A stretch of 64,000 nucleotides of DNA from the NCBI RefSeq assembly GCF_001975665.1, contig NZ_CP019419.1:3641501-3705500 (forward strand), in the 5' to 3' direction. Every line of letters starts with the position of its first letter. The first letter of the stretch is position 1. Under the pieces are notes generated by a model, which did no database searches, had not been told where the DNA came from, and saw only the letters and a list, made by a program, of their open reading frames with translations. This DNA is from Polaribacter reichenbachii. Its GTDB lineage: Bacteria; Bacteroidota; Bacteroidia; Flavobacteriales; Flavobacteriaceae. The position numbers were made by a program, and so were the translations under genes. Below are positions 46,783 to 64,000 of this stretch, one piece after another.

Positions 46783-48894
46783 ATGAAAAAAATTGGACTC
46801 TTATTGTTCTCATTTGCATTTGCTGCCAATTCTTATGGCCAAATCACAAAACAAGGACATACAAATCAAAATAAGTTTAAGCAATTAAAACAAGAATTAC
46901 CAACACCAAATTTAGAGAGAACTGCCTCTGGTAAACCTGGTAAAGAGTACACACAGCAGAAAGTAGATTATGTAATGGACATTACTTTAGATGATGCCAA
47001 TACAAAAATTACAGGCTCAGAAACCATTACTTATCATAACAATTCTAAAGACGATTTAGAGTATTTATGGGTACAATTAGACCAGAATATGAGAGCTGCA
47101 GACTCTAAAACTCCAGACATTAGTCCGAGTAGAATTAGAACTAAAATGAGTAAAGGCAGATATAATAGAGCTTTTCCAGAAGAACGTTTTGATGGTGGTT
47201 TTAATATAATGAGTGTTACTAATAAAGATGGTAGCCCATTATTACATACTATTAACCAAACAATGATGCGTATTAACTTAGTAGAACCTTTAGCTTCTGG
47301 AGCTACTTTTGAGTTTAATATTTCTTGGTGGTACAACATCAACAATCATAGAACAGATGGTGGTAGATCTGGTTACGAGCATTTTGATGAAAATGACAAT
47401 AACAATTATGTAATTGCACAGTTTTACCCAAGAATGTGTGTTTATGATAATGTAGAAGGATGGCAAAACGACCAATTCTGGGGAAGAAGTGAATTCGCAT
47501 TAGAATTTGGAGATTTTACGGTTAACATTACAGTACCAGAAGACCATATGTTAGGTGCAACAGGAGTTTTACAAAACGAAAGTGAAGTTTTAACCAAAAA
47601 GGAACAAAAAAGATTAGAAACTGCAAGAAAAACTTTTGATGATGTAGTTGTTATTAGAACTCAAAAAGAAGCAGAAAAGATTGAAAAATCGAAAGCAACA
47701 GGTACTAAAACTTGGAAATTTGTTGCAGAAAACGTGCGTGATTATGCATTTGCAACATCAAGAAAATTTATTTGGGATGCTATGGCTGTAGATATTAATG
47801 GTAAAACTGTAATGGCTTATTCATTATATTCTAAAGAAGCAAATCCATTATATGGTGATCATTCTACAAAAGCAGTTGCACAAACTTTAGAAACATATTC
47901 TAAATATACTTTCGATTATCCTTACCACAAAGCAATTTCTGTTGATGGGCAAATGGGTATGGAATATCCTCAAATTTGTTTTAATCCTGGTAGACCAGAT
48001 TTACCAGATGGTGGTTATTCTGATAGAATGAAATACAGAATGGTTAAAGTTACAATTCACGAAGTTGGCCATAACTTTTTCCCAATGATTGTAAATTCTG
48101 ATGAAAGACAATGGACTTGGATGGACGAAGGTTTAAACTCATATATGGAAATGTTAGCTGAGTTAGATTACGATCCTAACTTTCCAATTACAAGAGGTTA
48201 TCCTAAAAATATTGTAAGATATATGTCTGGAGATCAATCTAGAATTGCTCCAATTATGTCTAAAGGAGATAACGTATATAGTTTTGGTTCTAACGCTTAT
48301 GGTAAACCAGCAACAGCTCTTTGGATTTTAAGAGAAACCATTATGGGTAAAGAATTATTTGACCACGCTTTTAGAACTTATTCACAAAGATGGATGTTTA
48401 AACGCCCATCACCAGCAGATTTCTTTAGAACTATGGAAGATGCCTCTGGTATAGATTTAGACTGGTTTTGGAGAGGATGGTTTTACACTACAGATGTTAC
48501 TGATATAGGTATTAAAGGTGTTAAAAAATATGCTACAAAAGAATCTGGAGATACAGTTGAGTTTGTAGAAGATACTACAGAAGGTTTAGGTTTTGCTAAA
48601 AATGAAAACAAATATCATTACGAAATCACTTACGAAAAACCAGGTGGATTAGTAATGCCAATTATTGTAGAATTTACTTATAAAGATGGTACAAAAGAGA
48701 AAAAAACATACCCAGCACAAATCTGGAGATATAATGATAAAGAAGTAACTAAAGTTTTTTCATCATCTAAACAAATAGAAAGCATAATGATAGATCCTGA
48801 TTTAGAAACTGCAGATGTAGATACTTCTAACAATGCATTTCCTAAAGAAACAGCAAACAAATTCGACAAGTTTAAATCGAAAATAAAAGGATAA
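46783..48894 (+). CDS. M1-family metallopeptidase, paralogue A
   Basis: A 703-residue exported peptidase. It has a signal peptide (LLLFSFAFAANSYGQ), an N-terminal beta-domain and the zinc motif HEVGHNFFPM with the third ligand Glu in WTWMDEGLNSY, 18 residues on. The HExGH form differs from the usual HExxH spelling only in its last variable place. A C-terminal beta-domain ends with a PGGLVMPIIVEF stretch and a strand-rich tail. It probably removes N-terminal residues from peptides. It is followed by a terminator and a close paralogue. Confidence 0.9.
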   Translation: MKKIGLLLFSFAFAANSYGQITKQGHTNQNKFKQLKQELPTPNLERTASGKPGKEYTQQKVDYVMDITLDDANTKITGSETITYHNNSKDDLEYLWVQLDQNMRAADSKTPDISPSRIRTKMSKGRYNRAFPEERFDGGFNIMSVTNKDGSPLLHTINQTMMRINLVEPLASGATFEFNISWWYNINNHRTDGGRSGYEHFDENDNNNYVIAQFYPRMCVYDNVEGWQNDQFWGRSEFALEFGDFTVNITVPEDHMLGATGVLQNESEVLTKKEQKRLETARKTFDDVVVIRTQKEAEKIEKSKATGTKTWKFVAENVRDYAFATSRKFIWDAMAVDINGKTVMAYSLYSKEANPLYGDHSTKAVAQTLETYSKYTFDYPYHKAISVDGQMGMEYPQICFNPGRPDLPDGGYSDRMKYRMVKVTIHEVGHNFFPMIVNSDERQWTWMDEGLNSYMEMLAELDYDPNFPITRGYPKNIVRYMSGDQSRIAPIMSKGDNVYSFGSNAYGKPATALWILRETIMGKELFDHAFRTYSQRWMFKRPSPADFFRTMEDASGIDLDWFWRGWFYTTDVTDIGIKGVKKYATKESGDTVEFVEDTTEGLGFAKNENKYHYEITYEKPGGLVMPIIVEFTYKDGTKEKKTYPAQIWRYNDKEVTKVFSSSKQIESIMIDPDLETADVDTSNNAFPKETANKFDKFKSKIKG

Positions 48895-48942
48895 AATCTT
48901 AAGTCTGTAAAAGACACTATTTACTTTACTAAAAGTTAATTT

Positions 48943-48972
48943 AAAAGGCAATATGTGTACATATTGCCTTTT
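48943..48972 (+). terminator. terminator between M1 peptidase genes
   Basis: Arms AAAAGGCAATATGT and ACATATTGCCTTTT meet around GT, giving a perfect 14-bp stem with a T-rich end. It follows paralogue A by about 50 bp. Confidence 0.85.
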
Positions 48973-49066
48973 ATTATGATAAAGGTTTGTTAAAATTTTA
49001 ACAAACCTTTACCTCTTTGTATAGTAATTGTTAATTTTAGCCTAAATAAAATTCAAATCATAACAA

Positions 49067-51268
49067 ATGAAAAAAATCTCTTTATTCGTATTTTCTTTAT
49101 TCTTTATAAGCACTGTTAGCATTGCGCAAGAAAAAAAGGAAGAAAAGAAAACGCAACAAGGACACACAGACCAAAACAAATTCAGACAAATGAAAGATGT
49201 TTTGGCAACGCCTAACGATCAGCATACAGCTTCTGGTGCTCCAGGACATCAATATACGCAACAAAAAGTTGATTATATTATGGACATTCGTTTAGAAGAA
49301 AGTACAAATAAAATTTATGGTGATGAAAAAATAACGTATCACAATAACTCTAAAGACAATTTAGAATATTTATGGGTACAGTTAGACCAAAATATGAGAG
49401 CTGACGATTCTAAAACTCCGTTAGCAAAATCTGAAGGTGCATCTGCATTTATAACACCAAGTAACTTTAAAAGTACCTATTTAAAAGAAGGTAAAGGTTT
49501 TGGTTTTAATATAGAAAAAGTAACAAGTGCTGGTAAACCATTATCACATTTCATCAACAGAACAATGATGAGAGTTAATTTACCTAAAGCTTTAGCTCCT
49601 GGTGAAAGCTTTGAGTTTAGCATAAAATGGAATTATAAAATTAACGACATTAACAAAGATGGAGGTCGTTCTGGTTTAGAATCTTTTCCTGATGGAAACA
49701 ACAACTACACAATTGCACAATTTTTTCCAAGATTAGCAGTATATAATAATGTAGAAGGATGGCAAAATATGCAATTCTGGGGACGTTCTGAGTGGGCTTT
49801 AGAATTTGGAGATTATGAAGTTAACTTAACTGTACCAGAAGATCATATTGTAGATGCTACAGGTGTTTTACAAAACGAAAAAGATGTTTTAACTAAAACA
49901 CAACGTAAACGTTGGGAAGCTGCCAGAAAATCTTTTGATAAACCAGTTTTAATCGTAACTCAAGAAGAAGCTGAAAAAGCTGAAAAAGGACGTGCAACAG
50001 GTACAAAAACTTGGACATTTAAAGCACAACAGGTAAGAGATTTTGCTTTTGCAACATCAAGAAAATACATTTGGGATGCTATGGCTACAGATGTAAATGG
50101 TAAAACGGTTATGGCTGTATCATTATACCCTAAAGAAGGTAATCCTTTATGGGAAGAGCACTCAACAAGAGCTGTAGCCACTACTTTAATTGAATATTCT
50201 AAGTTAACGTTTACCTATCCTTATCCTAAAGCAATTTCTGTACATTCAGAAAGACAAGGTATGGAGTACCCAATGATTTGTTTCAACTTTGGTCGTCCAA
50301 ATCCTGATGGAACGTATTCAGACAGAACTAAAAAAGGAATGTTAGGTGTAATTATCCACGAAGTTGGGCACAACTTTTTCCCAATGATTGTAAATTCTGA
50401 TGAAAGACAATGGACATGGATGGATGAAGGTTTAAACTCTTTTGTAGAAATTTTAGCAGAAGATGTTTACGATCCTGAATTATTTGCATCAAACCCTGCA
50501 AAAAATATTACACGTTATATGGGTGGAGATCAATCTAACATCTCTCCTATCATGTCTCAAGGAGATTATGTAAAACAATTCGGACCAAATGCATATTCTA
50601 AACCAGCTGCTGGTTTATATATGTTACGTAAAACAATTATGGGTCCAGAATTATTTGATCACGCTTTTAGAACTTATTCACAAAGATGGATGTTTAAACA
50701 CCCAACTCCAGAAGATTTCTTTAGATCTATGGAAGATGCATCTGGTATGGATTTAGATTGGTTTTTTAGAGGATGGTTTTATACTACAGATGTTACAGAC
50801 ATAGGTATTAAAAATGTGAAACCTTTATATTTAACTGATAAGCCAAGTGAAAGAGTAACTAAGTTAAAAGAACAATACAAACAGTATTTTGATAACTTAG
50901 GAGACTTAGTTTACATTACTGATAAAAAAGAAGATGCAAACCCAAAAGCAATGGATAAATATTTAGATGGTGTAGAAGCGCCAAGCTATATTTACTCAGT
51001 AGAATTCGAAAAACCAGGAGGTTTAGTAATGCCATTAATCGTAGAATTAACCTATGCTGATGGTACTACAGAAAGACAAACTTTCCCAGCACAAATTTGG
51101 ATGAAAGATGATGCCACTGTAAAAAGAATTTTCTCTTCTACACAAGAAATTAAAAGTTTTAAAGTAGATCCAGATCAAGAAACTGCAGATGTAAATACAT
51201 CTAACAACAGCTGGCCAAAACCACAAACTGATAAGTTTGATCAATTTAAAGCTAAAGTAAAAGGATAA
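49067..51268 (+). CDS. M1-family metallopeptidase, paralogue B
   Basis: A 733-residue exported enzyme very similar to paralogue A over its whole length, with the same HEVGHNFFPM and WTWMDEGLNS zinc site. It has an extra segment of about 35 residues (about 595-635, KPSERVTKLKEQ onward) before the C-terminal domain, which accounts for most of the length difference. It has its own terminator and likely its own promoter after 48972. A tandem duplication with later divergence. Confidence 0.9.
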   Translation: MKKISLFVFSLFFISTVSIAQEKKEEKKTQQGHTDQNKFRQMKDVLATPNDQHTASGAPGHQYTQQKVDYIMDIRLEESTNKIYGDEKITYHNNSKDNLEYLWVQLDQNMRADDSKTPLAKSEGASAFITPSNFKSTYLKEGKGFGFNIEKVTSAGKPLSHFINRTMMRVNLPKALAPGESFEFSIKWNYKINDINKDGGRSGLESFPDGNNNYTIAQFFPRLAVYNNVEGWQNMQFWGRSEWALEFGDYEVNLTVPEDHIVDATGVLQNEKDVLTKTQRKRWEAARKSFDKPVLIVTQEEAEKAEKGRATGTKTWTFKAQQVRDFAFATSRKYIWDAMATDVNGKTVMAVSLYPKEGNPLWEEHSTRAVATTLIEYSKLTFTYPYPKAISVHSERQGMEYPMICFNFGRPNPDGTYSDRTKKGMLGVIIHEVGHNFFPMIVNSDERQWTWMDEGLNSFVEILAEDVYDPELFASNPAKNITRYMGGDQSNISPIMSQGDYVKQFGPNAYSKPAAGLYMLRKTIMGPELFDHAFRTYSQRWMFKHPTPEDFFRSMEDASGMDLDWFFRGWFYTTDVTDIGIKNVKPLYLTDKPSERVTKLKEQYKQYFDNLGDLVYITDKKEDANPKAMDKYLDGVEAPSYIYSVEFEKPGGLVMPLIVELTYADGTTERQTFPAQIWMKDDATVKRIFSSTQEIKSFKVDPDQETADVNTSNNSWPKPQTDKFDQFKAKVKG

Positions 51269-52118: not shown

Positions 52119-53240
52119 ATGAAAACAATAACTTTAAAACCAAAAAAACACCGAGAAAAAGAAGTTTTTTCTATTGAGTATCCTTTTGATAAGGAAATAA
52201 AAACTCACTTAAAAAAACTACCTTTTGTTTTTTGGAGCAATACACTTAGATGTTATTATGCTGAGTTAAATAAAGAAAATGTTGGTTTAATTTTTGATCA
52301 TTTAAGACTTAAAAAATGGTTTATAGATTACAGTAGTCTTCAATTAAAAAACAAATCTATAACCAAGAAAAAAGAAGCAACTCCCCTATTTTTACCAAAT
52401 CTTTCAGAAGCATTAAAAATTGATATTAATAAATTTAAAAGATGGTTACAACAAAAAAGATTAAGTGAAAATACTGTAAATACCTATGCAGATGTAACTA
52501 CATCTTTCTTAAAATATAGTGTATTAAAAAACTCAAATAATTATTCAACAAAGCTTATTGAAGCCTTTAATTACGATTTTATTTTTAAACAAAACAAATC
52601 TGTTTCATATCAAAATCAATGCATAAATGGCATAAAGAAATACTTTGAGTTTAAAGGTTTACAGGTTGAGAACATGTACATAGAAAGACCTAAAAAAGAA
52701 AGAAAATTACCATCGGTTTTAAGTGTAATAGAAATTAAATCCATCTTAGCCAACACAAAAAATTTAAAGCATAAAACACTATTATCATTAATTTATTCAG
52801 CAGGATTAAGGATTGGAGAAGCTCTAAATTTAAAAGTGAAAGATGTTGATGGACAGAGAATGTTAATCCATATTCATCAGGCAAAAGGTAAAAAGGATAG
52901 ATATACATTATTATCTGCCAGCTTTTTAAAATTATTGAGAGATTATTACAAAGCCTACAAACCAAAAGATTATTTATTTGAAGGACAAAAAGGAGCACAA
53001 TATACAAACTCAAGTGCACAATCAGTATTAAAAATTGCAACTCAAAAAGCAGGAATAAAAAAAAGAGTCACCTTACATACATTAAGGCATAGTTTTGCAA
53101 CCCATTTATTAGAAAACGGAACAGATATAAGATATATTCAGGAATTGTTGGGTCATAATAGTCCAAAAACCACAATGATTTACACACACGTAACAGAAAC
53201 CAGCATAAAAAACATTAAAAATCCGTTTGATGATTTATAG
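52119..53240 (+). CDS. tyrosine recombinase, cassette-array integrase candidate
   Basis: A 373-residue recombinase from the ATG at 52119 (an ATG at 52047 would add 24 hydrophobic residues). Catalytic residues, in this numbering: Arg231 (GLRIGE), Lys256 (AKGKKD), His320 and Arg323 (HTLRHSF), His346 (LLGH), Tyr355 (TMIYTHV). Core-binding domain at about 90-190. In front of it lies an N-terminal module of about 85 residues (HREKEVFSIEYPFDKEIK) that I cannot assign. Between the Lys and the HxxR motif there is no room for the 16-20-residue extra segment of IntI integrases, so it is Xer-like rather than canonical IntI. It lies just upstream of attI, in the cassette direction. Confidence 0.88.
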   Translation: MKTITLKPKKHREKEVFSIEYPFDKEIKTHLKKLPFVFWSNTLRCYYAELNKENVGLIFDHLRLKKWFIDYSSLQLKNKSITKKKEATPLFLPNLSEALKIDINKFKRWLQQKRLSENTVNTYADVTTSFLKYSVLKNSNNYSTKLIEAFNYDFIFKQNKSVSYQNQCINGIKKYFEFKGLQVENMYIERPKKERKLPSVLSVIEIKSILANTKNLKHKTLLSLIYSAGLRIGEALNLKVKDVDGQRMLIHIHQAKGKKDRYTLLSASFLKLLRDYYKAYKPKDYLFEGQKGAQYTNSSAQSVLKIATQKAGIKKRVTLHTLRHSFATHLLENGTDIRYIQELLGHNSPKTTMIYTHVTETSIKNIKNPFDDL

Positions 53241-53256
53241 TAAAATGATATCTTTA
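53226..53256 (+). promoter_or_regulatory. candidate cassette promoter (Pc)
   Basis: TTTG (53226-53229), 19 bases, then TATCTTTA (53249-53256): a Bacteroidota sigma-ABfr promoter (TTTG-N19-TAnnTTTG) with one mismatch. The -33 box overlaps the last codons of the recombinase gene. A start near 53263 would read through the attI junction into cassette 1, exactly the position of Pc in integrons. Confidence 0.6.
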
Positions 53257-53319
53257 ACTAAACTAAATGAATATTTATAATAACAACAAAAACTCAGCAT
53301 AGCCCACCAAAAAAGATCA

Positions 53320-53360
53320 AAAGGCTTATAAAAGTTGAGTGTATATACAAGTTACCTACA
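53320..53360 (+). other. attI-like recombination site
   Basis: The junction TATACAAG^TTACCTACA has its G at 53351. The sequence in front, GGCTTATAAAAGTTG and TGTATATACAAG, resembles the right arm of the attC sites (GCTTATACAACAACG^TTACC), but there is no left partner or central hairpin. The first cassette base is 53352. The exact left edge of the site is not known. Confidence 0.6.
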
Positions 53361-53378
53361 ATACAAAAAAAACGAACT

Positions 53379-54122
53379 ATGAGTTTATTTAACGACATAA
53401 TTGAAGGACTTATTAAAGGTTTTACTTCTTCAAATAAGAATTTAAAACTAATTGTAAAAGTCTCAATTGCTTTTGTGATTTTAGCAATACTTGTAGTTCT
53501 TGTAGGAGAATTAAAAGCTGACGATGTTAACAAAAAAAGTTTTGACCTTGTTGCTGGAGTTCTAGGGTTAGTTGGAGCATTTTTAGGTTTTGGAATAAAG
53601 GTTTATGAAGACACTAAAGAAAACGAAAAAAGAGCTGAAAAAATAGAGTCTCTTGAAAAAGAAATAAAAGAAAAACCAGATGAAAGTCAAACAGCTTGGG
53701 AACTTGCTCGATTAAAATTAGAAAGTTATTTGAATAAAAACTTAAAACAAGTTTCATCAATTTTTTATCTTTCTGCTACAGTAATGTTAGTTGGATTTGG
53801 ATTAATAATTTTTGGAGTTTATAAAGTTTATTCAAATCCAGAATTATTAAACCCTTCAATTTTAGTTACTTGTACAGGAGTAATTGTTAATTTTATTGGC
53901 GGAACTTTATTATTAATTTATCGTTCTACAATGAATCAAGCAAAAGGATATGTCGAAGTACTTGAAAGAATTAATGCAGTCGGAATGTCTATCCAAATTT
54001 TAGAATCAATAGATGATAAAAATCTTGAATTAAAAGATTCGACAACAGCAGAAATTGCAAAGGAACTTTTAAAAATTTATGGAAAGAATAATCTGAAAAG
54101 TACTGTAGGTAACACCGTATAA
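53379..54122 (+). CDS. cassette 1: TRADD-N-associated-like membrane protein
   Basis: A 247-residue membrane protein with helices at about 24-44, 55-74, 126-149 and 160-181 and a charged coiled segment between the two pairs. The second pair with its flanks (ELARLKLESYLNKNLKQVSS, then LIYRSTMNQAKGYVEVLERI) resembles the TRADD-N-associated membrane domain found in bacterial signalling and conflict proteins; this is a by-eye match. The ATG is 28 bp after the attI junction. The last four codons and stop (GNTV, TAA at 54120) are encoded by the R'' end of the attC site. The gene likely uses the Pc promoter. Confidence 0.6.
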   Translation: MSLFNDIIEGLIKGFTSSNKNLKLIVKVSIAFVILAILVVLVGELKADDVNKKSFDLVAGVLGLVGAFLGFGIKVYEDTKENEKRAEKIESLEKEIKEKPDESQTAWELARLKLESYLNKNLKQVSSIFYLSATVMLVGFGLIIFGVYKVYSNPELLNPSILVTCTGVIVNFIGGTLLLIYRSTMNQAKGYVEVLERINAVGMSIQILESIDDKNLELKDSTTAEIAKELLKIYGKNNLKSTVGNTV

Positions 54123-54242
54123 ACTTTATTGCTGGTTTTAGCTCACTTGGGAAATTCCTTCGGAATTTCGCCGTTCGTGTTTTATTTAGTAAATTCAGTG
54201 CTTAAACAACGCAACAAAGCTTATACAACAACGTTACCACAC
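54104..54242 (+). repeat. attC-like site 1
   Basis: R''-like TGTAGGTAAC (54104-54113) is complementary to the cassette start TTACCTACA. Then come ACCGTATAAACTTTATTGC, a central hairpin with a UUCG-type loop (GAAATTCC/GGAATTTC, 54151-54169), the right arm GCAACAAAGCTTATAC and R' GTTACCACAC with G at 54233. The outer arms pair with a few wobble or mismatched positions. Confidence 0.85.
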
Positions 54243-54244
54243 AT

Positions 54245-54946
54245 TTGAGAAAAACGCTTTTCATATCGACAATTTTAGTTTTGAATTCATTCTTTTCGTT
54301 TGCCCAAAACAGAATTGAATTAGTTACGAATGATTGTAGTCAAGAAAATGGATTTACAATGTTTTTATTGGATAGAGCTAAACCAAAAATTCTAACTGAA
54401 CAAAAATTTGAACAAGAAGAAAAATATTGGAATAGCCAAAAGAAGATTTTACTCAATAATTCGGACATTCTAAAAATAGAATACACGAATATTTTTGGAC
54501 AGATAATCGACACAACTTTCACAAACGCAAAGGAACTGAATGAAATAAAAATCTGTGTAAATAAATTCAAAGATTACGAAAAGAAATCTCTAATAAAAGA
54601 ATCAATCCAAAACGACCAAAGCTGGGTTTTAAACTCAACTTGGGGACATCAAACTTTTGAATCTGACAAATTAATTTTAAAACCTAAAAAAGGATTTCTA
54701 AAATATAAATATTACAAAAACGGAAAAAGAATAAAACGTGGAAAAATAAAAATAACAGAATTTGTTATAGACAAAATAGCTTTGTTTGAGCGAAAACTGA
54801 ATTTAATGAAAAACGTCGACAACTCTTGTAATTTTGGAATCAATTATAACCTGAACAATGGAATTGAAAAAATTAATTTTCAAGACGACAGTTGTTCTGG
54901 ATTTTCGAATGAACAATTATTGTCTGATTTAAAAATATCGGAATAA
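54245..54946 (+). CDS. cassette 2: secreted protein of unknown function
   Basis: A 233-residue protein with a signal peptide (LFISTILVLNSFFSFAQ) and a soluble domain with Lys-rich KPKKGFLKYKYYKNGKRIKRG, which suggests beta strands. No family is recognised. The start is a TTG at 54245, only 12 bp inside the cassette; no ATG lies upstream of the signal peptide within the cassette. Confidence 0.6.
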   Translation: MRKTLFISTILVLNSFFSFAQNRIELVTNDCSQENGFTMFLLDRAKPKILTEQKFEQEEKYWNSQKKILLNNSDILKIEYTNIFGQIIDTTFTNAKELNEIKICVNKFKDYEKKSLIKESIQNDQSWVLNSTWGHQTFESDKLILKPKKGFLKYKYYKNGKRIKRGKIKITEFVIDKIALFERKLNLMKNVDNSCNFGINYNLNNGIEKINFQDDSCSGFSNEQLLSDLKISE

Positions 54947-54952
54947 AAAAAC

Positions 54953-55092
54953 GTGTGGTAACACCGTGTATAATTAATTGCTTTTTAGAGCTTACTTACG
55001 AAAATTCCTGCGGAATTTTCTCGGGTTCGTAAAAGTTTACTAACTTAGTTACTTAACCACGCAACTAACCATACACAAACACGTTACCTGTA
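54953..55092 (+). repeat. attC-like site 2
   Basis: R''-like GTGTGGTAAC (54953-54962) pairs with the cassette 2 start TTACCACAC. Left arm GTGTATAATTAATTGC, central hairpin GAAAATTCC/GGAATTTTC (55000-55020), right arm GCAACTAACCATACAC, R' GTTACCTGTA with G at 55083. Confidence 0.85.
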
Positions 55093-55095
55093 ATT

Positions 55096-55698
55096 ATGAA
55101 AAAAACGAAAGTCATTCTTTATTTAATAATTGCTTCTTCAATTTTTATTTCTTGTAAAAAGGAAATTAAAGAAATGAATGAGTTGTTAGAAACGGATTTT
55201 AAAATTATTGAATTTTATTATGGTTATGACAATTATGAGAAAAATATCAGAAATGCTGAATCTGAACCAATAATAATAAAAGAAAGAAATTTTCTTGAAA
55301 TTAATGTAGATGTAGATGGAAATTGTGAAATAGAAGGAAAAAGAATTGAATCCAATTTAATTATTCCTGAACTAAAAAAATATCTAATTCCAAATCCCGA
55401 AAATGAAAGTATGCCAAAAACTATTGAGAAGGAATTTACTTACGCTGGAAAAATAATAGTAAATGAAAATTTATTAATTTCTGCATTATTTGACAAAGAT
55501 TTGAGTTATAAGAAATATAGTGAAATAAGGAACAAAATTTATATTGCACGAAATGAAATTAGAAATGAATTTGCAACAAAGAATTACGGAAAAACTTTAG
55601 CTGAATTAATGATATCTGACAAAAAAACTGAAAATGAACAATTTTATGAATTAAATGATATTTTCCCTTTTAATTATTCAGAAATAATGGAGGAATAA
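55096..55698 (+). CDS. cassette 3: ExbD-periplasmic-domain-like lipoprotein
   Basis: A 200-residue lipoprotein (IIASSIFISC, Cys20). The mature part resembles the periplasmic domain of Bacteroidota ExbD: LEINVDVDGNCEIEGKRIE, LKKYLIPNPENESMPKT, SYKKYSEIRNKIYIARNEI, RNEFATKNYGKTLAEL and a final IFPFNYSEI. The order matches ExbD's strand, short loop, long helix with Y-ELR-E and a C-terminal P-ISEAEP-like end. The N-terminal membrane helix of ExbD is replaced by a lipobox, so it cannot join an ExbB pentamer in the usual way. It may compete for TonB-type partners (inference). Confidence 0.6.
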   Translation: MKKTKVILYLIIASSIFISCKKEIKEMNELLETDFKIIEFYYGYDNYEKNIRNAESEPIIIKERNFLEINVDVDGNCEIEGKRIESNLIIPELKKYLIPNPENESMPKTIEKEFTYAGKIIVNENLLISALFDKDLSYKKYSEIRNKIYIARNEIRNEFATKNYGKTLAELMISDKKTENEQFYELNDIFPFNYSEIMEE

Positions 55699-55704
55699 AA
55701 AAAC

Positions 55705-55844
55705 TACAGGTAACACCGTGTATAAAAAATTGCTACTTTAGTACTTAACCAAAAGCAGTTGCAATTTTATGCACTTTGATTTTCCGTTGGAAAATCCTCG
55801 CACACAAAAACGCAACTTTCCATAACACAAACACGTTGTAGCTA
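55705..55844 (+). repeat. attC-like site 3
   Basis: R''-like TACAGGTAAC (55705-55714) pairs with the cassette 3 start TTACCTGTA. Left arm GTGTATAAAAAATTGC, central hairpin GATTTTCC/GGAAAATC (55778-55796), right arm GCAACTTTCCATAACAC, R' GTTGTAGCTA with G at 55835. The R' core differs from site 1 and 2 and matches the next cassette. Confidence 0.8.
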
Positions 55845-55854
55845 ATTACAGAAA

Positions 55855-56634
55855 ATGAAAAATTTCCTCTTAATATTAATACTTTTTTTTTCAATTTCTT
55901 GCGCAAATAAAAAGAAAAACAATAAAGATGAGTTAGAGAAAAACAAAACTCTAAAAGCCTCATTAATTCTTGGGGAAAGAATAGATGGTCCTGCAAACAT
56001 TAGAGATACGATTAATGGAAAGTTACTATTCGAATTGAATGATTTAACATTAATAGAAACAACAGAAATAAAAAACAACTGGCTTGAAGTAGGAGTATTT
56101 ATAAAACCAACCATAGAACAGGCTGAGAATTTCTACATCTTACCAAACACAAAAATTTATTCAAAAAACAAATTAATTGGAATAACTAAAGATACTGTAA
56201 ACTTTCTTTTTGGTGCGGAAGATTATGCCTTTATCAATGGGTTTTCTCATAAGAACAATATCAAGTCAAATACTATTCCTGAGAATGAACTTAAATCTAT
56301 AATAAAAAAGAATGAATTTTCATTATCAGATTTCAATCCTTTTATTGAAAATTTTGGATTTGAAATCTCTGAACTGGGTAAACTAGAGGATATCGAACAG
56401 TACTACATTAGTCAAAGTATACTAGTTGACATCTCTCCAAGAGACAGAATTACACTTCTGTTTAGAGACAAAATGCTAATTGGATTTATTCATTCCCGAA
56501 AAATTTCTTTAGAAAAATTTAAAACCTATGATTTAGTTCGTGGACATAAATTGACAATAACTTCAGATTTAAAAGATTATGAAATCAAAAAAATAATTGA
56601 ATCTAAAATACAAGTATATAACTCTATTGATTAA
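55855..56634 (+). CDS. cassette 4: lipoprotein with SH3-like region
   Basis: A 259-residue lipoprotein (LILFFSISC, Cys16). Residues about 38-85 (GPANIRDTINGKLLFELND, NNWLEVGVFI) resemble a bacterial SH3-like fold, with the paired strands and Trp expected for such domains. The rest is unassigned. The ATG is 20 bp after the cassette start. Two of its neighbours are also lipoproteins. Confidence 0.6.
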   Translation: MKNFLLILILFFSISCANKKKNNKDELEKNKTLKASLILGERIDGPANIRDTINGKLLFELNDLTLIETTEIKNNWLEVGVFIKPTIEQAENFYILPNTKIYSKNKLIGITKDTVNFLFGAEDYAFINGFSHKNNIKSNTIPENELKSIIKKNEFSLSDFNPFIENFGFEISELGKLEDIEQYYISQSILVDISPRDRITLLFRDKMLIGFIHSRKISLEKFKTYDLVRGHKLTITSDLKDYEIKKIIESKIQVYNSID

Positions 56635-56639
56635 AAAAC

Positions 56640-56777
56640 TAGCTACAACAACGCGTATAATTAATGGCTAGTTTTAGCCTGCTTACGAACATTCCTGCGG
56701 AATATTCTATCTGTGATTTATTTGCTAACTTAGTTGCTTAAACACGCCACAAATCATACGCAAGACCGTTACCCAAC
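56640..56777 (+). repeat. attC-like site 4
   Basis: R''-like TAGCTACAAC (56640-56649) pairs with the cassette 4 start TTGTAGCTA. Left arm GCGTATAATTAATGGC, central hairpin GAACATTCC/GGAATATTC with one mismatch (56687-56707), right arm GCCACAAATCATACGC, R' GTTACCCAAC with G at 56768. Confidence 0.8.
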
Positions 56778-56809
56778 ATTAACCACTCAACTCAAAACTG
56801 AAAGAAAAA

Positions 56810-57316
56810 TTGAAAGCTGAATTTATTAATCAACCAACATCTGGACAATATGAGGAAAAAATTTTTGACTTAAATACAGTTTGGAAAAGTCAAATTTGGA
56901 GTTGGACAAAATTCGTAACAAAAAGTGGATTTGAATGGGTAGGAATGTTTCGTGGAGAACAGAAAAGAATTGCAATTGCGGAAAAAATTAATCAAATAGG
57001 AATTCTAACAAGTGACGGACTTTATATTTTAGATATTGAGGAAAAAGAAATCCTATATTTTGACCAAAAAGTAGAATATGGAGAATTAGCTGAAATCCCA
57101 ACAAAAGATAAATTCATTGTTTCGGAATTTGGCAAAATCGGAATAATTGACGAAAATTTTAAAATAAAGTATTTAAATCTTGAATTTGAGATTGAAAATA
57201 TTGTGTTTGGAAAATATGAGGAAAAAAGATTGAAAATAAACTTTGAGAAACTACCTAATTATGAAATAATAGATGGCTTTTTAAATACTGAAAATTGGAA
57301 AATAGAAATGAAATAA
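56810..57316 (+). CDS. cassette 5: cytosolic protein of unknown function
   Basis: A 168-residue protein without signal peptide or membrane helix. It is made of alternating strands (KRIAIAEKINQIGILTSDG, DKFIVSEFGKIGIIDENFK), which suggests a repeat of beta elements. No family is recognised. No ATG precedes the first conserved-looking residues; the apparent start is a TTG at 56810, about 40 bp into the cassette. A start further upstream or another non-ATG codon cannot be excluded. Confidence 0.5.
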   Translation: MKAEFINQPTSGQYEEKIFDLNTVWKSQIWSWTKFVTKSGFEWVGMFRGEQKRIAIAEKINQIGILTSDGLYILDIEEKEILYFDQKVEYGELAEIPTKDKFIVSEFGKIGIIDENFKIKYLNLEFEIENIVFGKYEEKRLKINFEKLPNYEIIDGFLNTENWKIEMK

Positions 57317-57321
57317 AAAAC

Positions 57322-57460
57322 GTTGGGTAACACCGTATAAACTTTATTGCTAGTTATAGCTCACTTGGGAAATTCCTCCGGAATTTCGCCGTTCGTGGTT
57401 TATTTACTAAATTCACTGCTTAAACAACGCAACAAAGCTTATACAACAACGTTCTACGCA
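57322..57460 (+). repeat. attC-like site 5
   Basis: R''-like GTTGGGTAAC (57322-57331) pairs with the cassette 5 start TTACCCAAC. Left arm GTATAAACTTTATTGC, central hairpin GAAATTCC/GGAATTTC (57369-57387), right arm GCAACAAAGCTTATAC, R' GTTCTACGCA with G at 57451. Nearly identical to site 1 over about 120 bp. Confidence 0.85.
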
Positions 57461-57476
57461 ATTTAAAATCAACATA

Positions 57477-58337
57477 ATGGAAACATTCGGAAATAGGATA
57501 AATGATTTAATACAAGTTAACAAAAGTCTTCTTTTTTTACAAGGAGAAATGGCTCAACTAACTTATCTTTCATTTGAACAAAATATTAAATGGATTAATA
57601 ATTTGGAAGAAGGTGCAACAATCCCAATTTCATATCCTTTAGGATTTAAGGCTGACAATACAGCTATAATGAGTACTCCTCGAAATTATACAAAAGATGA
57701 ACTAACTGAAAAATATGCTCATTTAGGTATGAATAAATTACCTATAGATGCAATTTTTCAGCTTGTTACTATTATGGAAACTTTGATGAATGATATTTTA
57801 CGAACAATTTTAATAGAATATCCAAGCAAAATACCTTCAAAGAAAAAAGTTGATATTGATTGTGTTTTAAACGCTTCCTCTTTAGAACAAGCTAAAATTA
57901 CAATTATAGATGGAATTTTAAATGAAATAGCATATAAATCTCCAAAAGATTACGCTTCTGAATTTGAGAAATATACGAGTGTGAAACTACTGGAAAATCC
58001 TGTTTTTCATAAATACATTGAACTAAAAGCCACAAGAGATATTCATATACATAATGGAGGAACTGCAAATGAAATTTATTTAATAAAATCTGGAGTGGTT
58101 GCAAGAGTTAAGAATGGAGAATTTTTACCTGTAGATATTCAATATTTTTTAATGTCTTATGAACAGTGTTTACAATTAAACGAAATTTTAGAAAAAGAAT
58201 TAGACAAAATATGGCCAAGTGAAAATTTCAGAAAAAGCGAAACAAAAAAGGAAAGTACTGAAAAAGAGGAAGTAGTTCAAAAAGTAATTGAAGAATCAAA
58301 AACGGAAAATAAAGAAGAAACAGAAAAAACTGCGTAG
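57477..58337 (+). CDS. cassette 6: HEPN-like protein
   Basis: A 286-residue mostly helical protein. Arg187 to His192 (RDIHIH, R-x4-H) sits in ELKATRDIHIHNGG, the local pattern of HEPN RNase active sites, and the preceding helices (IFQLVTIMETLMNDILR) fit the HEPN bundle. The C-terminal 50 residues are a Lys/Glu-rich tail. It could be an RNA-cleaving toxin or defence protein, although no nucleotidyltransferase antitoxin (MNT) gene is adjacent. The final codons and stop (TAG at 58335) lie in the R'' box. Confidence 0.6.
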   Translation: METFGNRINDLIQVNKSLLFLQGEMAQLTYLSFEQNIKWINNLEEGATIPISYPLGFKADNTAIMSTPRNYTKDELTEKYAHLGMNKLPIDAIFQLVTIMETLMNDILRTILIEYPSKIPSKKKVDIDCVLNASSLEQAKITIIDGILNEIAYKSPKDYASEFEKYTSVKLLENPVFHKYIELKATRDIHIHNGGTANEIYLIKSGVVARVKNGEFLPVDIQYFLMSYEQCLQLNEILEKELDKIWPSENFRKSETKKESTEKEEVVQKVIEESKTENKEETEKTA

Positions 58338-58470
58338 AACACCGTATAAACTTTATTGCTGGCTTTTTGCTTACTTGCGAAAGTCCTTGCGGACTTTCTT
58401 GGTCAGTAATTATTTAGTAACTTTACTGCTAAACCATCGCAACAAAGCTTATACATCAACGTTGGGCGTC
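58331..58470 (+). repeat. attC-like site 6
   Basis: R''-like TGCGTAGAAC (58331-58340) pairs with the cassette 6 start TTCTACGCA. Left arm GTATAAACTTTATTGC, central hairpin GAAAGTCC/GGACTTTC (58379-58398), right arm GCAACAAAGCTTATAC, R' GTTGGGCGTC with G at 58461. Confidence 0.85.
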
Positions 58471-58505
58471 ATACAACAAAATTACTGCAAATAAGAGAAA
58501 TTAGG

Positions 58506-60749
58506 ATGATTGATAAAATAGAACTAAAAGAAACAAACACCTATATTCAAAAAGTCGAAGTAAATAATCTAGCTAAAGTTAATTTCTTTTTCGGGAGTAA
58601 TGGTTCTGGAAAATCTACTATTGCTAAGTTATTGTATAACCAAAGCTTATCAGATGTAGAAAAAGATAATAAATTTGAACAATGTAAAATTTCAGGCTTT
58701 AATCTTAAAAATGATGAAATTTTAGTTTTTGATGAAAAGTATGTTGAAAGAAATTTTATTTCAAACAAAGAATTATCTGGATTATTTACCCTTAATGAGG
58801 AAAACAAAGATATTGATGACAAAATTCGTACAAATCAAAAGGAGTTAAACAAACTAGACAATTATTTAGAAAACTTTTCTAAACGTGAGAGAAAAATAAA
58901 AAAAGCATTAAATGACAAACACGAAGAATTAAAGAGAAATTGTTGGTGGGAAAGAAATTCGTTTGACACTTTTTATGAAATTGAATTAGAATATTCGAGA
59001 AATAAAGAAAACCATCTAAGAAATATTAGAAATTACCTGCCTATAGATAAATCTGATGAAGAACTATCGTTAGAATCATTATCTGCTAGATATAAAGATT
59101 TATTTGAGATTAAAAGAGAGAAGATTGACATTAAAATATCTTCAGATTTATTCAAAAAACTTGGAAAACTTGAAAATGATATAATTCCATTAATGGAAGA
59201 AGTTATAACTACCAACAAAGAAGTAAATATCGCAGAATTAATAGACGCATTAGGCATAAGGAAATGGGTTGAAGAAGGACGTAATTTTGTTCTTGATGAG
59301 AAAAAAAACATTTGTCCTTTTTGTCAAAGTGAAACATACGATGACAATTTAAAACAGAGTTTTGAAGAGTATTTTAATAAAACCTATCAAGAAAAAATTA
59401 ACAAAATTAAATCTTTAAAAGAAGCATATTTAATAACATTCAATCAATTGTTAGAAAATATTATTCAAGTGTCTAAAGTTTACAACAAGGATAATCAGAC
59501 TACAGACCTACATACTGAATGTAGTAACTTACTTGCTGACAATATTAAAAAACTTGAGAGAAAACTTGAGTATTCAAATGAAATTATTGAATTCTTTGAT
59601 ATTTATAATTTCGACCTAGAATTAGATATTATTAATGATGAAATTGAAGATAATAATGAGAAAATTGAAGATTTTCAAAAAAACAAAGAACAATTAATAG
59701 AAGATATTTGGAACTATTTAGCAAAAGAAAGTGTTAATGAGATAAAAGAATACGATAACTATAACTCAAGAATAACTAAGATTTTACTTCAACTGAACAC
59801 TCTTTCATCTCACTTTGAAAACTCTAAAAAAACAATCAAAGACAAAGTTGAAAAATTAAAATCAAAAACAGTTTCAACAGATAAAGCTGTTAAAGCTATA
59901 AATGGAATTCTAAAAAGTTCTGGTTTTGATAATTTTGAAATAGAAGAAAAAGAAACCTCAAATAATATTTCAAGATATATTTTAAAACGTGAAAATAATT
60001 CTGAACAAGATGTATTTAAAACGCTTAGTGAAGGCGAAAAGAATTTTATAGCCTTTCTTTACTTCTATCAATTAGTATTAGGAACAGATGATAAAGATTC
60101 AGAATTAAAGAAAAGAATAGTTGTAATTGATGATCCTGTTTCAAGTTTAGATAGTCAGGTGTTATTCGTTGTATCAACACTAATTCATTCCCTAATAAAA
60201 TATTCTGAAACAGATAAAAATCAATTTAAAAATTCAACTATAAAACAAGTATTTATATTATCTCATAATTTATATTTCTATAAAGAGGTATCGTTTAAAC
60301 AAAGACCTATTTGTAGAAATAAAGCACACTTTTCAGTTTCAAAATTTAACGGCATTTCAAATATTGAGCATAAAGGAGTCGATACTTTCGTACACAATGA
60401 CTATATGTTACTTTGGAAAAGTATAAAAGAATTAAAAGAAACAAATAATAAAGTATTCAATATTACTATCGGAAATAGTATGAGAAGAATTATTGAAAGC
60501 TACGTGAATTTTATAGGTTTAGGCAAAAGTCCTTGGGATAGTCTTAAAAGCTTAGACGTTTCAGACCCAATTTACCCAATATGCTCTTCTTTAATATCTG
60601 AAATTAATGATGTTAGTCACAAATCACTACCATTTGATGATTTATATTATCAAAGAATTGTTAATGAGGAGCCTGACAAACTTTATTCTGCCTTCCAAAA
60701 AATATTTAAAAGTATCGGAGAAGAACACTATAAGATGATGATGAACTAA
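58506..60749 (+). CDS. cassette 7: RloC/PrrC-like AAA ATPase, anticodon nuclease candidate
   Basis: A 747-residue protein of the AAA_13 type: Walker A GSNGSGKST (30-38), coiled coils with a CPFC zinc-hook motif (270-273), signature LSEGEK (507-512), Walker B VVIDDPVSSLD (539-549) and H-loop LSHN. After the ATPase core, Arg660, Glu664 (in SMRRIIESY) and His705 (in NDVSHKS) recall the R-E-H triad of the anticodon nucleases PrrC and RloC; the spacing is near PrrC's R320/E324/H356. These are tRNA-cleaving antiphage proteins. Match made by eye. It is the largest cargo gene of the array. Confidence 0.72.
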   Translation: MIDKIELKETNTYIQKVEVNNLAKVNFFFGSNGSGKSTIAKLLYNQSLSDVEKDNKFEQCKISGFNLKNDEILVFDEKYVERNFISNKELSGLFTLNEENKDIDDKIRTNQKELNKLDNYLENFSKRERKIKKALNDKHEELKRNCWWERNSFDTFYEIELEYSRNKENHLRNIRNYLPIDKSDEELSLESLSARYKDLFEIKREKIDIKISSDLFKKLGKLENDIIPLMEEVITTNKEVNIAELIDALGIRKWVEEGRNFVLDEKKNICPFCQSETYDDNLKQSFEEYFNKTYQEKINKIKSLKEAYLITFNQLLENIIQVSKVYNKDNQTTDLHTECSNLLADNIKKLERKLEYSNEIIEFFDIYNFDLELDIINDEIEDNNEKIEDFQKNKEQLIEDIWNYLAKESVNEIKEYDNYNSRITKILLQLNTLSSHFENSKKTIKDKVEKLKSKTVSTDKAVKAINGILKSSGFDNFEIEEKETSNNISRYILKRENNSEQDVFKTLSEGEKNFIAFLYFYQLVLGTDDKDSELKKRIVVIDDPVSSLDSQVLFVVSTLIHSLIKYSETDKNQFKNSTIKQVFILSHNLYFYKEVSFKQRPICRNKAHFSVSKFNGISNIEHKGVDTFVHNDYMLLWKSIKELKETNNKVFNITIGNSMRRIIESYVNFIGLGKSPWDSLKSLDVSDPIYPICSSLISEINDVSHKSLPFDDLYYQRIVNEEPDKLYSAFQKIFKSIGEEHYKMMMN

Positions 60750-60759
60750 AAAGTACGAA

Positions 60760-60898
60760 CGCCCAACACCGTATATAATTTATTGCTGGCTTCTCGCCTA
60801 CTTACGAAAGTCCTCGCGGACTTTCTTGGTCTGTATTTATTTACTAAATTAGTTGCTTAAACCACGCAACAAACCATATACAAACACGTTGTGCATAA
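60760..60898 (+). repeat. attC-like site 7
   Basis: R''-like ACGCCCAAC (60760-60768) pairs with the cassette 7 start TTGGGCGT. Left arm GTATATAATTTATTGC, central hairpin GAAAGTCC/GGACTTTC (60807-60826), right arm GCAACAAACCATATAC, R' GTTGTGCATA with G at 60889. Confidence 0.85.
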
Positions 60899-60913
60899 TT
60901 TGAACTGAACGAA

Positions 60914-61477
60914 ATGAAACTAACATTAATACTATTTTCAACACTATTTTTTCTGATCAATTCTTGTGAAAAAGGAAATGATAAGACAAAAATTTCACCT
61001 GAAAATGGAATGGAAAAATTATTCGTTGCGGAAGATATATTTAATCAGAAATGGATTGATACTTTAATGCCAATCAGAAATGCCGATTTTTATGAATTTA
61101 AAAATGAAAATAAAAACTTAATAAAATACTCTTACATTTTAGATTATAGTTCTGACCAAAATCAGATTTATGGAAAAATGGAATCAAATACTTATATTTT
61201 TGACAACATTGATTTGGTGCTTATTGACAAATTAATTGCTGAACACAATAAAACGAATCTGAATGGAATGGAATATTTGATAGAAGAAACAGATGAATTT
61301 AACTTACCTTTTGAGTCGTGTAAAACATTTGCTCTTCTCAACCCAAACAACAGAGATTTCAAAGGATTTACGATTAATTATATTAAAGAAAATAAACTAA
61401 TTCAATCAAAAATTTTATTCAATAATTTTTTCCCAATTGATTGGGATATTGCTGTTAAAAAACTGAATGAATTATAA
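60914..61477 (+). CDS. cassette 8: lipoprotein of unknown function
   Basis: A 187-residue lipoprotein (LFSTLFFLINSC, Cys18) with a mixed alpha/beta soluble part. No family is recognised. The ATG is 24 bp after the cassette start. It is the last cassette with a full attC-like end. Confidence 0.6.
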   Translation: MKLTLILFSTLFFLINSCEKGNDKTKISPENGMEKLFVAEDIFNQKWIDTLMPIRNADFYEFKNENKNLIKYSYILDYSSDQNQIYGKMESNTYIFDNIDLVLIDKLIAEHNKTNLNGMEYLIEETDEFNLPFESCKTFALLNPNNRDFKGFTINYIKENKLIQSKILFNNFFPIDWDIAVKKLNEL

Positions 61478-61482
61478 AAAAC

Positions 61483-61622
61483 TATGCACAACATTGTATA
61501 AAAATAATGCTTAAATTTAATCCTAAATCAAAAGGTTAGTGCGCATTTGGTCACTCTGATTTTCCTGCGGAAAATCCTCGGACGCAAACCCGCACTATTC
61601 TTATACGAGACCGTTGTGCATA
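61483..61622 (+). repeat. attC-like site 8 (divergent)
   Basis: R''-like TATGCACAAC (61483-61492) pairs with the cassette 8 start TTGTGCATA. Left arm ATTGTATAAAAATAATGC is diverged; the central hairpin GATTTTCC/GGAAAATC (61558-61576) is intact; right arm ends TTATACGAGACC, R' GTTGTGCATA with G at 61613. The flank 61614 onward starts like cassette 8. Confidence 0.75.
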
Positions 61623-61827
61623 ATGCGAAAATCGTGCTAAACATCAACATTTGAACTAAAAAAGCCAACCGCACAAACAGCACATTTATTTTTTCCAGAC
61701 ACCTAAAGCCAACGCTTAAAAAAATAAAAGAGCTGTTTTTAGCCAACGCTCAAAAACGGAACGCAAAACAGAATTAAGAAATGACTTTGCAATACCATTG
61801 CATTAATAATTCTCTATCTTTGTGACA
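61614..61827. other. sequence after the last attC-like site
   Basis: No gene and no further attC-like site is visible. The first 11 bases repeat the beginning of cassette 8, as if another related cassette stood here and lost its end. Slightly richer in C/G repeats (AGCCAACG is seen three times). Confidence 0.45.
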
Positions 61828-62145
61828 ATGAAATTTATCACTATCATATTATCCTTATTAATACTTGTTTTGTCAATCAAACCTTGTTCTGACGGAAATA
61901 ATGCCGAAGACCTGCACCAAGACGAAATAACTGCTGAACACAATCATCAAAATGATAGTGATGATACTTGTCCAATAACTTGTATTTGTAATTGTTGTGG
62001 AATCGCAATTACATATCAACCAATTCAAACTTTTGAATTAGGTATTAACAATCAGATTTCTACAGAAATTCTATCTGTTTATCAATCAATCTACAGATTT
62101 AATTTTCATTCCAACATCTGGCAACCGCCTCAATTGATTAGCTAA
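61828..62145 (+). CDS. DUF6660-like small secreted Cys-rich protein
   Basis: About 105 residues from the ATG at 61828 (a GTG at 61822 is the alternative). It has a signal peptide, an acidic/His-rich stretch (DLHQDEITAEHNHQND) and a cluster of cysteines CPITCICNCCG, then FNFHSNIWQPPQL, which matches the DUF6660 end. The His/Cys richness suggests metal binding (inference). It lies about 50 bp before a TonB-dependent receptor; the two are commonly paired. Confidence 0.7.
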   Translation: MKFITIILSLLILVLSIKPCSDGNNAEDLHQDEITAEHNHQNDSDDTCPITCICNCCGIAITYQPIQTFELGINNQISTEILSVYQSIYRFNFHSNIWQPPQLIS

Positions 62146-62196
62146 TTTATCGACCACAAGTCAAGAATTTTTAGTTAATTAATTTTTACATTTTCA

Positions 62197-64000
62197 ATGA
62201 ATAAATACATATTGAGCGCAATGCTCACAATTATAATATGCTTTTCAGTAAAAGCACAAACCTCTGATATCTTAATAAAAGTCCTTTCAGAATCCGAAAA
62301 CGAACCGTTATTAGGAGCAACAGTATATTTTGAGGAATTAGAAAAAGGAGCAGTAACCGATTTTGACGGAATTGCAACTTTTACAGAAATTCCAAACGGA
62401 GAACTTATTCTAATAATTTCATATTTAGGTTTTGAAACCTTAAAAACTACTATTCTAATCCCTAATGGTTCAAACTTAATTTTCAAGTTAAAAAGTGGAG
62501 GAAATGAATTGGATGAAGTTGTGTTACAATCTTCAAGAAGTACAAGAACGGTAAGAAAAATTCCAACAAGAATAGAATATATTGGTGCAGAAGAATTAGG
62601 AGAAAAAGCCATAATGAATCCCACCAATATCTCAATGGTACTTCGTGAAAGCACAGGAATTCAAATGCAACAAACTTCTTTAAGTAGCGGAAGTACAAAT
62701 ATTAGAATACAAGGACTTGATGGACGCTACACGCAACTTTTAAGAGATGGATTTCCTCTTTATGGAGGTTTTTCAAGTGGTTTGAGCATATTGCAAATTC
62801 CACCATTAGACTTACAACAGTTTGAAATTATTAAAGGAAGTTCTTCAACACTATATGGTGGTGGAGCAATTGCAGGTTTAATAAATATGGTTTCAAAAAC
62901 ACCTGACGAAGAACCAGCTTTAGATATTATGTTGACGCAAACCCAAGCATTAGGAAGTACAGCAAATGTATTTTACAGCAAGCGAAATGAGAAATTTGGT
63001 GTTTCACTTTACGGTTCTGGTCATTACCAAAAAGTTTATGACCCAGAAAATGATGGATTTAGTAATTTACCAAAAACAACATCAATTTCATTCAACCCAA
63101 AATTCTTTTATTATCCATCAGAAAAAACAACGTTTTGGATTGGTTTAAATGGTACTTACGATGACAGAATTGGTGGAGATGTAACAAAAATTGAAAGTGG
63201 AGAAAACGGAATTCATCAATATACAGAAGAAAATATCTCAAAGAGGTTGAGCAGTCAAGCAGTTTATAAAACGCAAATAGATTCAATAAGTTCTTTGAAC
63301 ATAAAAAATAGTATTTCCTTTTTCGATAGAAACCTTACTATTCCAGATTTTAATTTTGACGGTAAACAAATCAACACGTTTACAGAAATCACTTATCAAA
63401 AAGCATCTTCAAAAGCTGATTGGATTTTTGGAGCAAACTTATACACTTCAAATTTTGATGAAAATGATAATGCAACTTTACAACGTGACCAAACAGATAT
63501 AACGTATGGAATGTTCGCAAACAACATTTATGACCTTTCAGATAATTGGATTTTAGAAACTGGATTGAGAGCTGATTACAACACAGACTTTGGATTTTTT
63601 CCACTTCCAAGAATTTCATTATTGTATAAAAATGACAATGGATTTTCAAGCAGAATTGGTGGTGGTTTAGGCTACAAAATACCAGATATTTTTACAGAAG
63701 AAGCAGAATTTATAAATTTTGAAAATGTACTTGGTATAGATAAATCAAACTTAAAAGCAGAACGTTCTTACGGTTTAAATCTTGACTTTAATTATAAAAC
63801 TCGTCTATTTGAGAGTATAGGTTTTTCTATTAATCAGCTTTTTTACGTTTCTGCAATAAACAACGGTTTATTATTAAATAGTACAGATAATGGATTGTTT
63901 GCATTTGAAAATGCAACCGACGAAATTTTAAGTAAAGGAGCAGAAACAAACATAAAGTTTACCTACAAAGACTTTCGATGGTTTTTAAATTATGCGCTAA
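62197..64000 (+). CDS. TonB-dependent receptor, truncated by window edge
   Basis: At least 601 residues; the frame stays open from the ATG at 62197 to the last base. It has a signal peptide (ILSAMLTIIICFSVKAQ), a CarboxypepD_reg-like domain (about 25-105, LLGATVYFEELEKGAVTDFD) and a plug domain (about 120-230, SGSTNIRIQGLDGRYTQLLR, then a GSSSTLYGGGAIAGLINMV closing motif). The start of a beta-barrel follows. The DUF6660-like protein before it suggests metal or small-chelate uptake. The C-terminus lies outside the window. Confidence 0.9.
   Translation, partial: MNKYILSAMLTIIICFSVKAQTSDILIKVLSESENEPLLGATVYFEELEKGAVTDFDGIATFTEIPNGELILIISYLGFETLKTTILIPNGSNLIFKLKSGGNELDEVVLQSSRSTRTVRKIPTRIEYIGAEELGEKAIMNPTNISMVLRESTGIQMQQTSLSSGSTNIRIQGLDGRYTQLLRDGFPLYGGFSSGLSILQIPPLDLQQFEIIKGSSSTLYGGGAIAGLINMVSKTPDEEPALDIMLTQTQALGSTANVFYSKRNEKFGVSLYGSGHYQKVYDPENDGFSNLPKTTSISFNPKFFYYPSEKTTFWIGLNGTYDDRIGGDVTKIESGENGIHQYTEENISKRLSSQAVYKTQIDSISSLNIKNSISFFDRNLTIPDFNFDGKQINTFTEITYQKASSKADWIFGANLYTSNFDENDNATLQRDQTDITYGMFANNIYDLSDNWILETGLRADYNTDFGFFPLPRISLLYKNDNGFSSRIGGGLGYKIPDIFTEEAEFINFENVLGIDKSNLKAERSYGLNLDFNYKTRLFESIGFSINQLFYVSAINNGLLLNSTDNGLFAFENATDEILSKGAETNIKFTYKDFRWFLNYAL

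Follow-up and report, generated by a model that had tools for sequence, protein, structure and literature searches.

Does this Polaribacter reichenbachii chromosome carry a genuine integron, and if so, which enzyme moves its cassettes? The question is raised by a stretch of 64,000 nucleotides (NZ_CP019419.1, positions 3,641,501 to 3,705,500; hereafter the window), in which an earlier note described a tyrosine recombinase, an attI-like junction and a row of single-gene cassettes. Our analysis of sequences and predicted folds agrees with the integron-like layout and amends it: the enzyme is predicted not to be IntI, and the array is much longer than the eight cassettes first described. We put at roughly 0.85 the probability that a series of 36 or more cassettes begins in positions 52119-61613, and that the predicted neighbouring recombinase takes them up and releases them at G^TT by way of the folded bottom strand of their sites.

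The recombinase gene and the junction were found where the earlier note had placed them, at the left end of the array. The gene (52119-53240, on the plus strand like the attI-like stretch, the cassettes and the sites) encodes 373 aa; an alternative upstream ATG at 52047 would give a protein of 397 aa. An attI-like stretch (53241..53351) runs from its stop codon to TATATACAAG^TT; base 53351 is the G of the triplet in which crossover would occur. As judged by the match of cassette ends at 53351, cassette 1 appears to join this attI-like point at G^TT, 111 bases 3' of the recombinase.

If a cassette was once a closed circle, its start must fit the site at its 3' end. We therefore asked over how many bases the start of each cassette is complementary, in reverse, to the left end of that site (own-end test). 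In the window, seven cassettes match over 10 bases and the eighth over 9, giving a sum of 79 that is reached by one of the 40320 pairings of window cassettes and sites, namely the true pairing. The larger sample joined to the window another 10 stretches from the same genome and 10 from eight relatives, and took in 169 of 178 site matches (two duplicates of window sites and seven weak matches were set aside). Here, 120 of 133 testable cassettes match over at least 8 bases, compared to 3.4% of mismatched pairs. Judged by their ends, the cassettes are circular-permutation units.

All eight cassettes and their eight related sites are present and run in one direction, as first described, but the array does not stop there. 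Past the window it continues to position 102022 in the window's numbering (C1:3743522), with 36 consecutive cassettes that each match over at least 9 bases. Open reading frames of at least 80 aa are found in 35 of the 36, the longest frame lying on the array strand in all 35; one cassette has no such frame. The longest runs of chained cassettes are 4 to 22 in 12 real stretches, compared to 1 to 5 in reversed-sequence controls. Runs of at least 5 were also found in six of 80 named loci (Algibacter onchidii, Flavobacteriaceae S0862, Winogradskyella ursingii, Seonamhaeicola aphaedonensis, Rufibacter and a Bacteroidetes metagenome-assembled genome); since the reversed controls for these loci reach 4, chains of 3-4 cassettes were left uncounted. 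Wider own-end matching was also tried as a mark to separate these arrays from IntI integrons and was rejected, as runs built on 7-base matches are equally long in reversed controls and some IntI regions have own-end matches of 11 to 15 bases.

Copies of cassettes in other places break at the same points. Among 282 cassettes, 49 have copies of at least 95% identity elsewhere (111 places), and 61 copies end 0-6 bases past the boundary. Window cassette 2 is also the fifth cassette of another array in a relative (G001), with 84.6% DNA identity over 774 bases. In genome G052, one of its own cassettes is found at attI and, 100% identical, 14 kb further inside the array, and a Winogradskyella cassette has a copy (92.5%) in G009. 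Of the 60 bases past the boundary, 19 are alike in the G052 pair, 20 in the window/G001 pair and 17 in the Winogradskyella/G009 pair, the sequences that follow the cassette 2 pair being unrelated. We conclude that gain, loss or copying of cassettes has taken place at G^TT, where the boundaries had been predicted, which is the opposite of the outcome that the earlier note had named as refuting it. No homologous flanks of the window locus were found among the stretches retrieved. One array of G009 (L108) holds five copies of a 550-base cassette with identical sites.

The sites could instead be dispersed repeats unrelated to recombination, a possibility already raised in the earlier note together with that of a locus lacking insertion or deletion at G^TT. 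Similar sites are indeed present outside the main array. The own-end matches, the unbroken chains and the copies that break at G^TT all speak for recombination, and dispersed repeats were rejected by the own-end test; we regard this explanation as having almost no chance of being right.

The eight window sites are 124-126 bases long from the left AAC to the right GTT. Their bottom strand is predicted to pair AAC with GTT and to form a 16-pair stem, in which 9 of 16 pairs vary on both sides and 98.7% of cells are paired. Over 142 distinct sites, in an alignment that was fitted to the model, 96.6% of cells are paired and 15 of 19 pairs vary on both sides. The predicted hairpin is thus kept through compensatory changes, with minimum-energy folds of sites 3 and 8 that differ from those of the other six. 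No Rfam family reaches its gathering score within the window, so no known RNA element accounts for the sites. The bottom strand is more stable than the top in 132 of 137 sites, by a mean of 3.1 kcal/mol; part of this advantage comes from two nearly fixed G-T pairs, retained in 131 of 141 and 140 of 142 sites, whose top-strand equivalents are A-C mismatches.

In integrons, the bottom-strand hairpin of a site is cut between A and C, the cut strand is joined to attI, and the product is resolved by replication. The array may work in the same way: the recombinase next door would cut the hairpin bottom strand between A and C and join the cut strand to attI, and replication would resolve the attI x attC product. 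The cassettes could also be real but exchanged through double-stranded sites, the hairpin serving another purpose such as transcription termination. XerA-type enzymes, the class whose profile the window recombinase matches above cut-off (see below), usually act on double-stranded sites, and the sites do stand at gene ends. However, the folding bias and the fixed G-T pairs fit selection on one DNA strand. Furthermore, PMC9892861 reports that IntI1 recombined one site of the Polaribacter phage P12002L when the bottom strand was supplied, while the top strand gave no recombinants. We consider exchange through double-stranded sites improbable. P12002L (L245) has seven matches, at E 3e-4 or better, to the model of the window sites, so sites of this class may be usable by IntI1 if the one assayed is among the seven.

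With a covariance model built from the eight window sites, 85 matches at E up to 1 were found across the same genome, in the main array and in further clusters. Four of these clusters (C1:3011730-3027045, 3265579-3276216, 3322552-3374252 and 3402583-3413902) have no copy of the array recombinase found alongside. When the model was run on related genomes, as had been proposed in the earlier note, sites were found in 56 of 58 genus genomes and in 213 of 249 sampled family genomes. In one genome (G053), the positions of the sites suggest that arrays can reach about 130 kb. Three of the P12002L sites have very short loops (55-58 bases overall) and lie near methyltransferase and Mom-like genes. The phylum is not poor in such arrays; they have gone unnoticed, which is probably explained by published tools requiring the IntI domain (PMC9668308 and PMC9024848). 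PMC9024848, on IntegronFinder 2.0, states that 93% of complete integrons come from Gammaproteobacteria, with Salinibacter added for Bacteroidetes.

The recombinase, counted as present at E 1e-60, is found in 174 of the 249 family genomes: 162 have both recombinase and sites, 12 the recombinase alone, 51 sites alone and 24 neither. Sites accompany the recombinase in 162 of 174 genomes, compared to 51 of 75 genomes without it (Fisher p 1.7e-6, with kinship ignored). In 15 of 15 genomes inspected by eye, among the listed matches with both on one contig and at most 60 kb apart, the sites lie 3' of the recombinase in the same orientation. Within the genus, the cassette chain begins no more than 150 bases past the recombinase stop in 14 of 19 stretches. 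The attI-like end lies 33 bases 3' of the stop in 7 of the 19, and a common ATATAAC-like stretch precedes GTT at the attI-like ends of the genus. The enzyme of the array would then be the recombinase next door. Alternatively, the cassettes could be moved by XerC/XerD or by some other recombinase in trans, with the neighbour as a bystander. This would fit the genomes that have sites without the recombinase, and the same genome has two further Xer-like genes and site clusters far from any copy of the array enzyme. Against this stand the 14 stretches with the recombinase at the array head and the association across the 249 genomes, and clusters without an integrase are common in classical integrons too (CALIN; PMC9024848). 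We think it very unlikely that the neighbour is a bystander.

Six residues of the recombinase that are predicted to be catalytic (R231, K256, H320, R323, H346 and Y355) are unchanged in all 19 aligned relatives. They lie in a catalytic domain at residues about 200-364, preceded by a core-binding domain at about 97-180 and by an extra N-terminal domain at 1-72. Named relatives include one from Algibacter onchidii (53%), and viral contigs contain one distant relative (30%). The closest genus relative (60%; L004/L111, G001:C1:1905240-1906352) contains four stops; genome G001 also has two intact recombinase copies, each heading an array.

The IntI profile TIGR02249 gives the window recombinase 193 bits in a split match, below its cut-off of 265, while NF040815, which describes the XerA type, gives 224.1 bits against a cut-off of 220. 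Residues 180-246 of the 2a3v chain have 24 residues of the window recombinase opposite them. The spacing from G-x-R to HxLRH is 90-91 in 19 of 19 relatives and 94-98 in 12 of 12 Xer proteins, compared to 133 in 15 of 15 IntI (measured in 15 of the 20 IntI loci). Because it is predicted to lack the IntI insert, the window recombinase is not an IntI. A search for IntI above the curated cut-off found none in 58 genus genomes and none in 249 family genomes, and a true IntI as the array enzyme was rejected. The same search across the phylum gave matches in 85 of 296 genomes. One genome (G107) has a full IntI of 422 bits, the only such genome listed in the class of the window.

Could this simply be an ordinary integron whose IntI lost its insert, which would make the arrays of Bacteroidota just a further clade of integrons? 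The 193 bits scored with TIGR02249 and an IntI-like C-terminal end of the recombinase are consistent with such a loss. Smyshlyaev 2021 (PMC8138268) describes the insert as not fully conserved in an integron-like subgroup, yet as essential for integron function. In the best tree, which was built without three array loci, 12 IntI rows form one clade (support 100) and the 31 rows from Bacteroidota a second one (92); further recombinases branch between the two. A single clade uniting IntI with the array recombinases was not rejected by an approximately unbiased (AU) test (p 0.27). However, the NF040815 score is the higher of the two and above its own cut-off, a profile of the N-terminal domain was found in 0 of 17 IntI frames and 0 of 12 Xer frames, and the site model has no match in 20 IntI loci and eight IntI regions. 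On balance, we view loss of the insert from an ordinary IntI as unlikely, though still to be taken seriously.

In IntI, the folded site is recognised through the insert in the catalytic domain. Here, structure recognition would fall to another part of the enzyme, possibly the extra N-terminal domain, which is modelled as a confident small fold (pLDDT 93). Its likeness to the N-terminal (damage recognition) fold of XPB is under accepted thresholds. The best HARP (PF07443) score for the N-terminal part is 19.4 bits, in a relative (L007), compared to a gathering cut-off of 25; this best score is not that of the window protein, HARP appears at E up to 1 in two of 19 members, and the profile compared with 4o66 gives E 1.1. 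HARP was rejected as a firm identity for the domain, its scores being under the cut-offs. Fold lists for the whole model gave no coverage of residues 1-94. The domain may read DNA structure; its likeness to folds that bind DNA structures (HARP, XPB) is weak.

Several observations weigh against an array of cassettes moved by the neighbouring recombinase. No own-end match of 8 bases or more was found for 13 of the 133 testable cassettes, and the strict integron R box GTTRRRY, in the form given by PMC9892861, stands at only 27 of 282 cassette starts, with GTT itself retained. The 51 family genomes with sites and no recombinase at E 1e-60, and the 12 with the reverse, also count here. Most copied cassettes are confined to one genome, so homologous exchange could account for some of the copies. 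No clear chain was found near the recombinase stop in five of the 19 genus stretches. In the same set of chains, those of G016, G009, Algoriphagus, Mesonia and MAG39 are doubtful, and the first step in Algibacter is a weak match. Finally, the earlier note had placed a promoter at the left end of the array, which our scans did not bear out. The number of sigma-70-like matches near the window recombinase (15) is not above that of shuffles (mean 18.8), and TANNTTTG, which we take to be the Bacteroidota -7 motif, was not found in the 120 bases 3' of it. Among the 31 recombinases of the genus, 16 do have the motif after the stop, compared to 9% of control stretches, and in 11 of 29 named recombinases, compared to 6% of controls.

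The cargo of the array is mostly of unknown function with likely defence proteins among it, much as had been expected. Cassette 1 (53352..54233; site 54111..54235, AAC to GTT) encodes a 247 aa membrane protein with a CyanoTRADDas_TM domain, and cassette 2 (54234..55083; site 54960..55085), the one with a relative in the G001 array, a protein of unknown function. The products of cassettes 3 (55084..55835, 200 aa; site 55712..55837), 4 (55836..56768, 259 aa; site 56647..56770), 5 (56769..57451; site 57329..57453) and 6 (57452..58461, 286 aa; site 58338..58463) are likewise of unknown function. Cassette 7 (58462..60888; site 60765..60890) encodes a 747 aa AAA_13 ATPase that falls in the PADLOC candidate defence family PDC-S06, and cassette 8 (60889..61613; site 61490..61615) a 187 aa protein of unknown function. 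The first part of cassette 9 occupies 61614..64000; the cassette has 6192 bases in all, ends at C1:3709305 and carries a DUF6660 protein and a TonB-dependent receptor. Cassettes 9 and 10 (61614 to C1:3716145) are unusually large, at 6.2 and 6.8 kb with multiple genes each, and the DUF6660 protein of these large cassettes has a 91.6% identical counterpart in a relative (G016). Among 26 further cassette proteins, there were single defence-like matches to SoFic, to AbiEii, to restriction enzymes and to other candidates, and Pfam searches of cassette proteins also found SLATT domains and a TonB receptor. Upstream of the recombinase, two neighbouring genes (46783-51268) encode large proteins that look secreted, resemble each other and have an HEVGH zinc-peptidase-like motif; they are likely a tandem duplication.

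The prevailing view is that integrons need an IntI with its special insert and are rare in Bacteroidota. Should the proposed mechanism be true, the insert would not be essential for recombining folded sites, the origin or the remodelling of integrons would not have been a single event, and standard tools would have missed a large reservoir of mobile genes, with many candidates for defence among them. The array also poses a testable question: which part of the enzyme reads the hairpin? A full-text literature search, with bioRxiv and most subscription papers outside its reach, returned no description of this class. We tentatively propose, at a little under even odds, that flavobacteria and other Bacteroidota have an integron of independent origin, in which a XerA-type enzyme without the insert came to cut folded single-stranded attC hairpins by gaining a HARP/XPB-like structure-binding domain, and that its sites, present in most genomes of the family, make it one of the largest systems of gene exchange in bacteria to have escaped recognition.

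In class 1 integrons, the integrase is divergent from the cassettes. The window recombinase is instead co-directional with them, with attI at its 3' end. The array nonetheless resembles IntI integrons, both class 1 and sedentary chromosomal ones, in having a recombinase gene, an attI-like point, many cassettes that point the same way and mostly carry one gene each, hairpin sites in which AAC/GTT is conserved, a bottom-strand bias and clusters without a recombinase. It differs in its sites, which are about 125 bases long with a 16-bp stem and form a sequence class of their own in which the R box is rarely GTTRRRY, and in a recombinase with an extra N-terminal domain and without the IntI insert. 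The latter, an additional domain near patch III, is defining for the integron integrase according to PMC9668308. The orientation of the recombinase relative to the cassettes is like that of the spirochaete integrons with a reversed integrase which the same paper describes (see also the Treponema paper PMC3607928), but those have IntI, whereas the window enzyme lacks the insert. Compared to XerA-type recombinases (NF040815; PDB 4a8e and 5hxy), the window enzyme has the extra domain and heads cassette arrays. The attC clusters of phage P12002L are similar in their sites, as its matches to the window site model show, and differ in being on a phage, without a recombinase, and in being described in PMC9892861 as ordinary attC sites, one of which IntI1 can use. 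Taken together, the layout and history are those of an integron, while the protein feature that defines IntI integrons is absent; the origin of the system is possibly independent, and the array probably represents a second kind of integron that has been overlooked.

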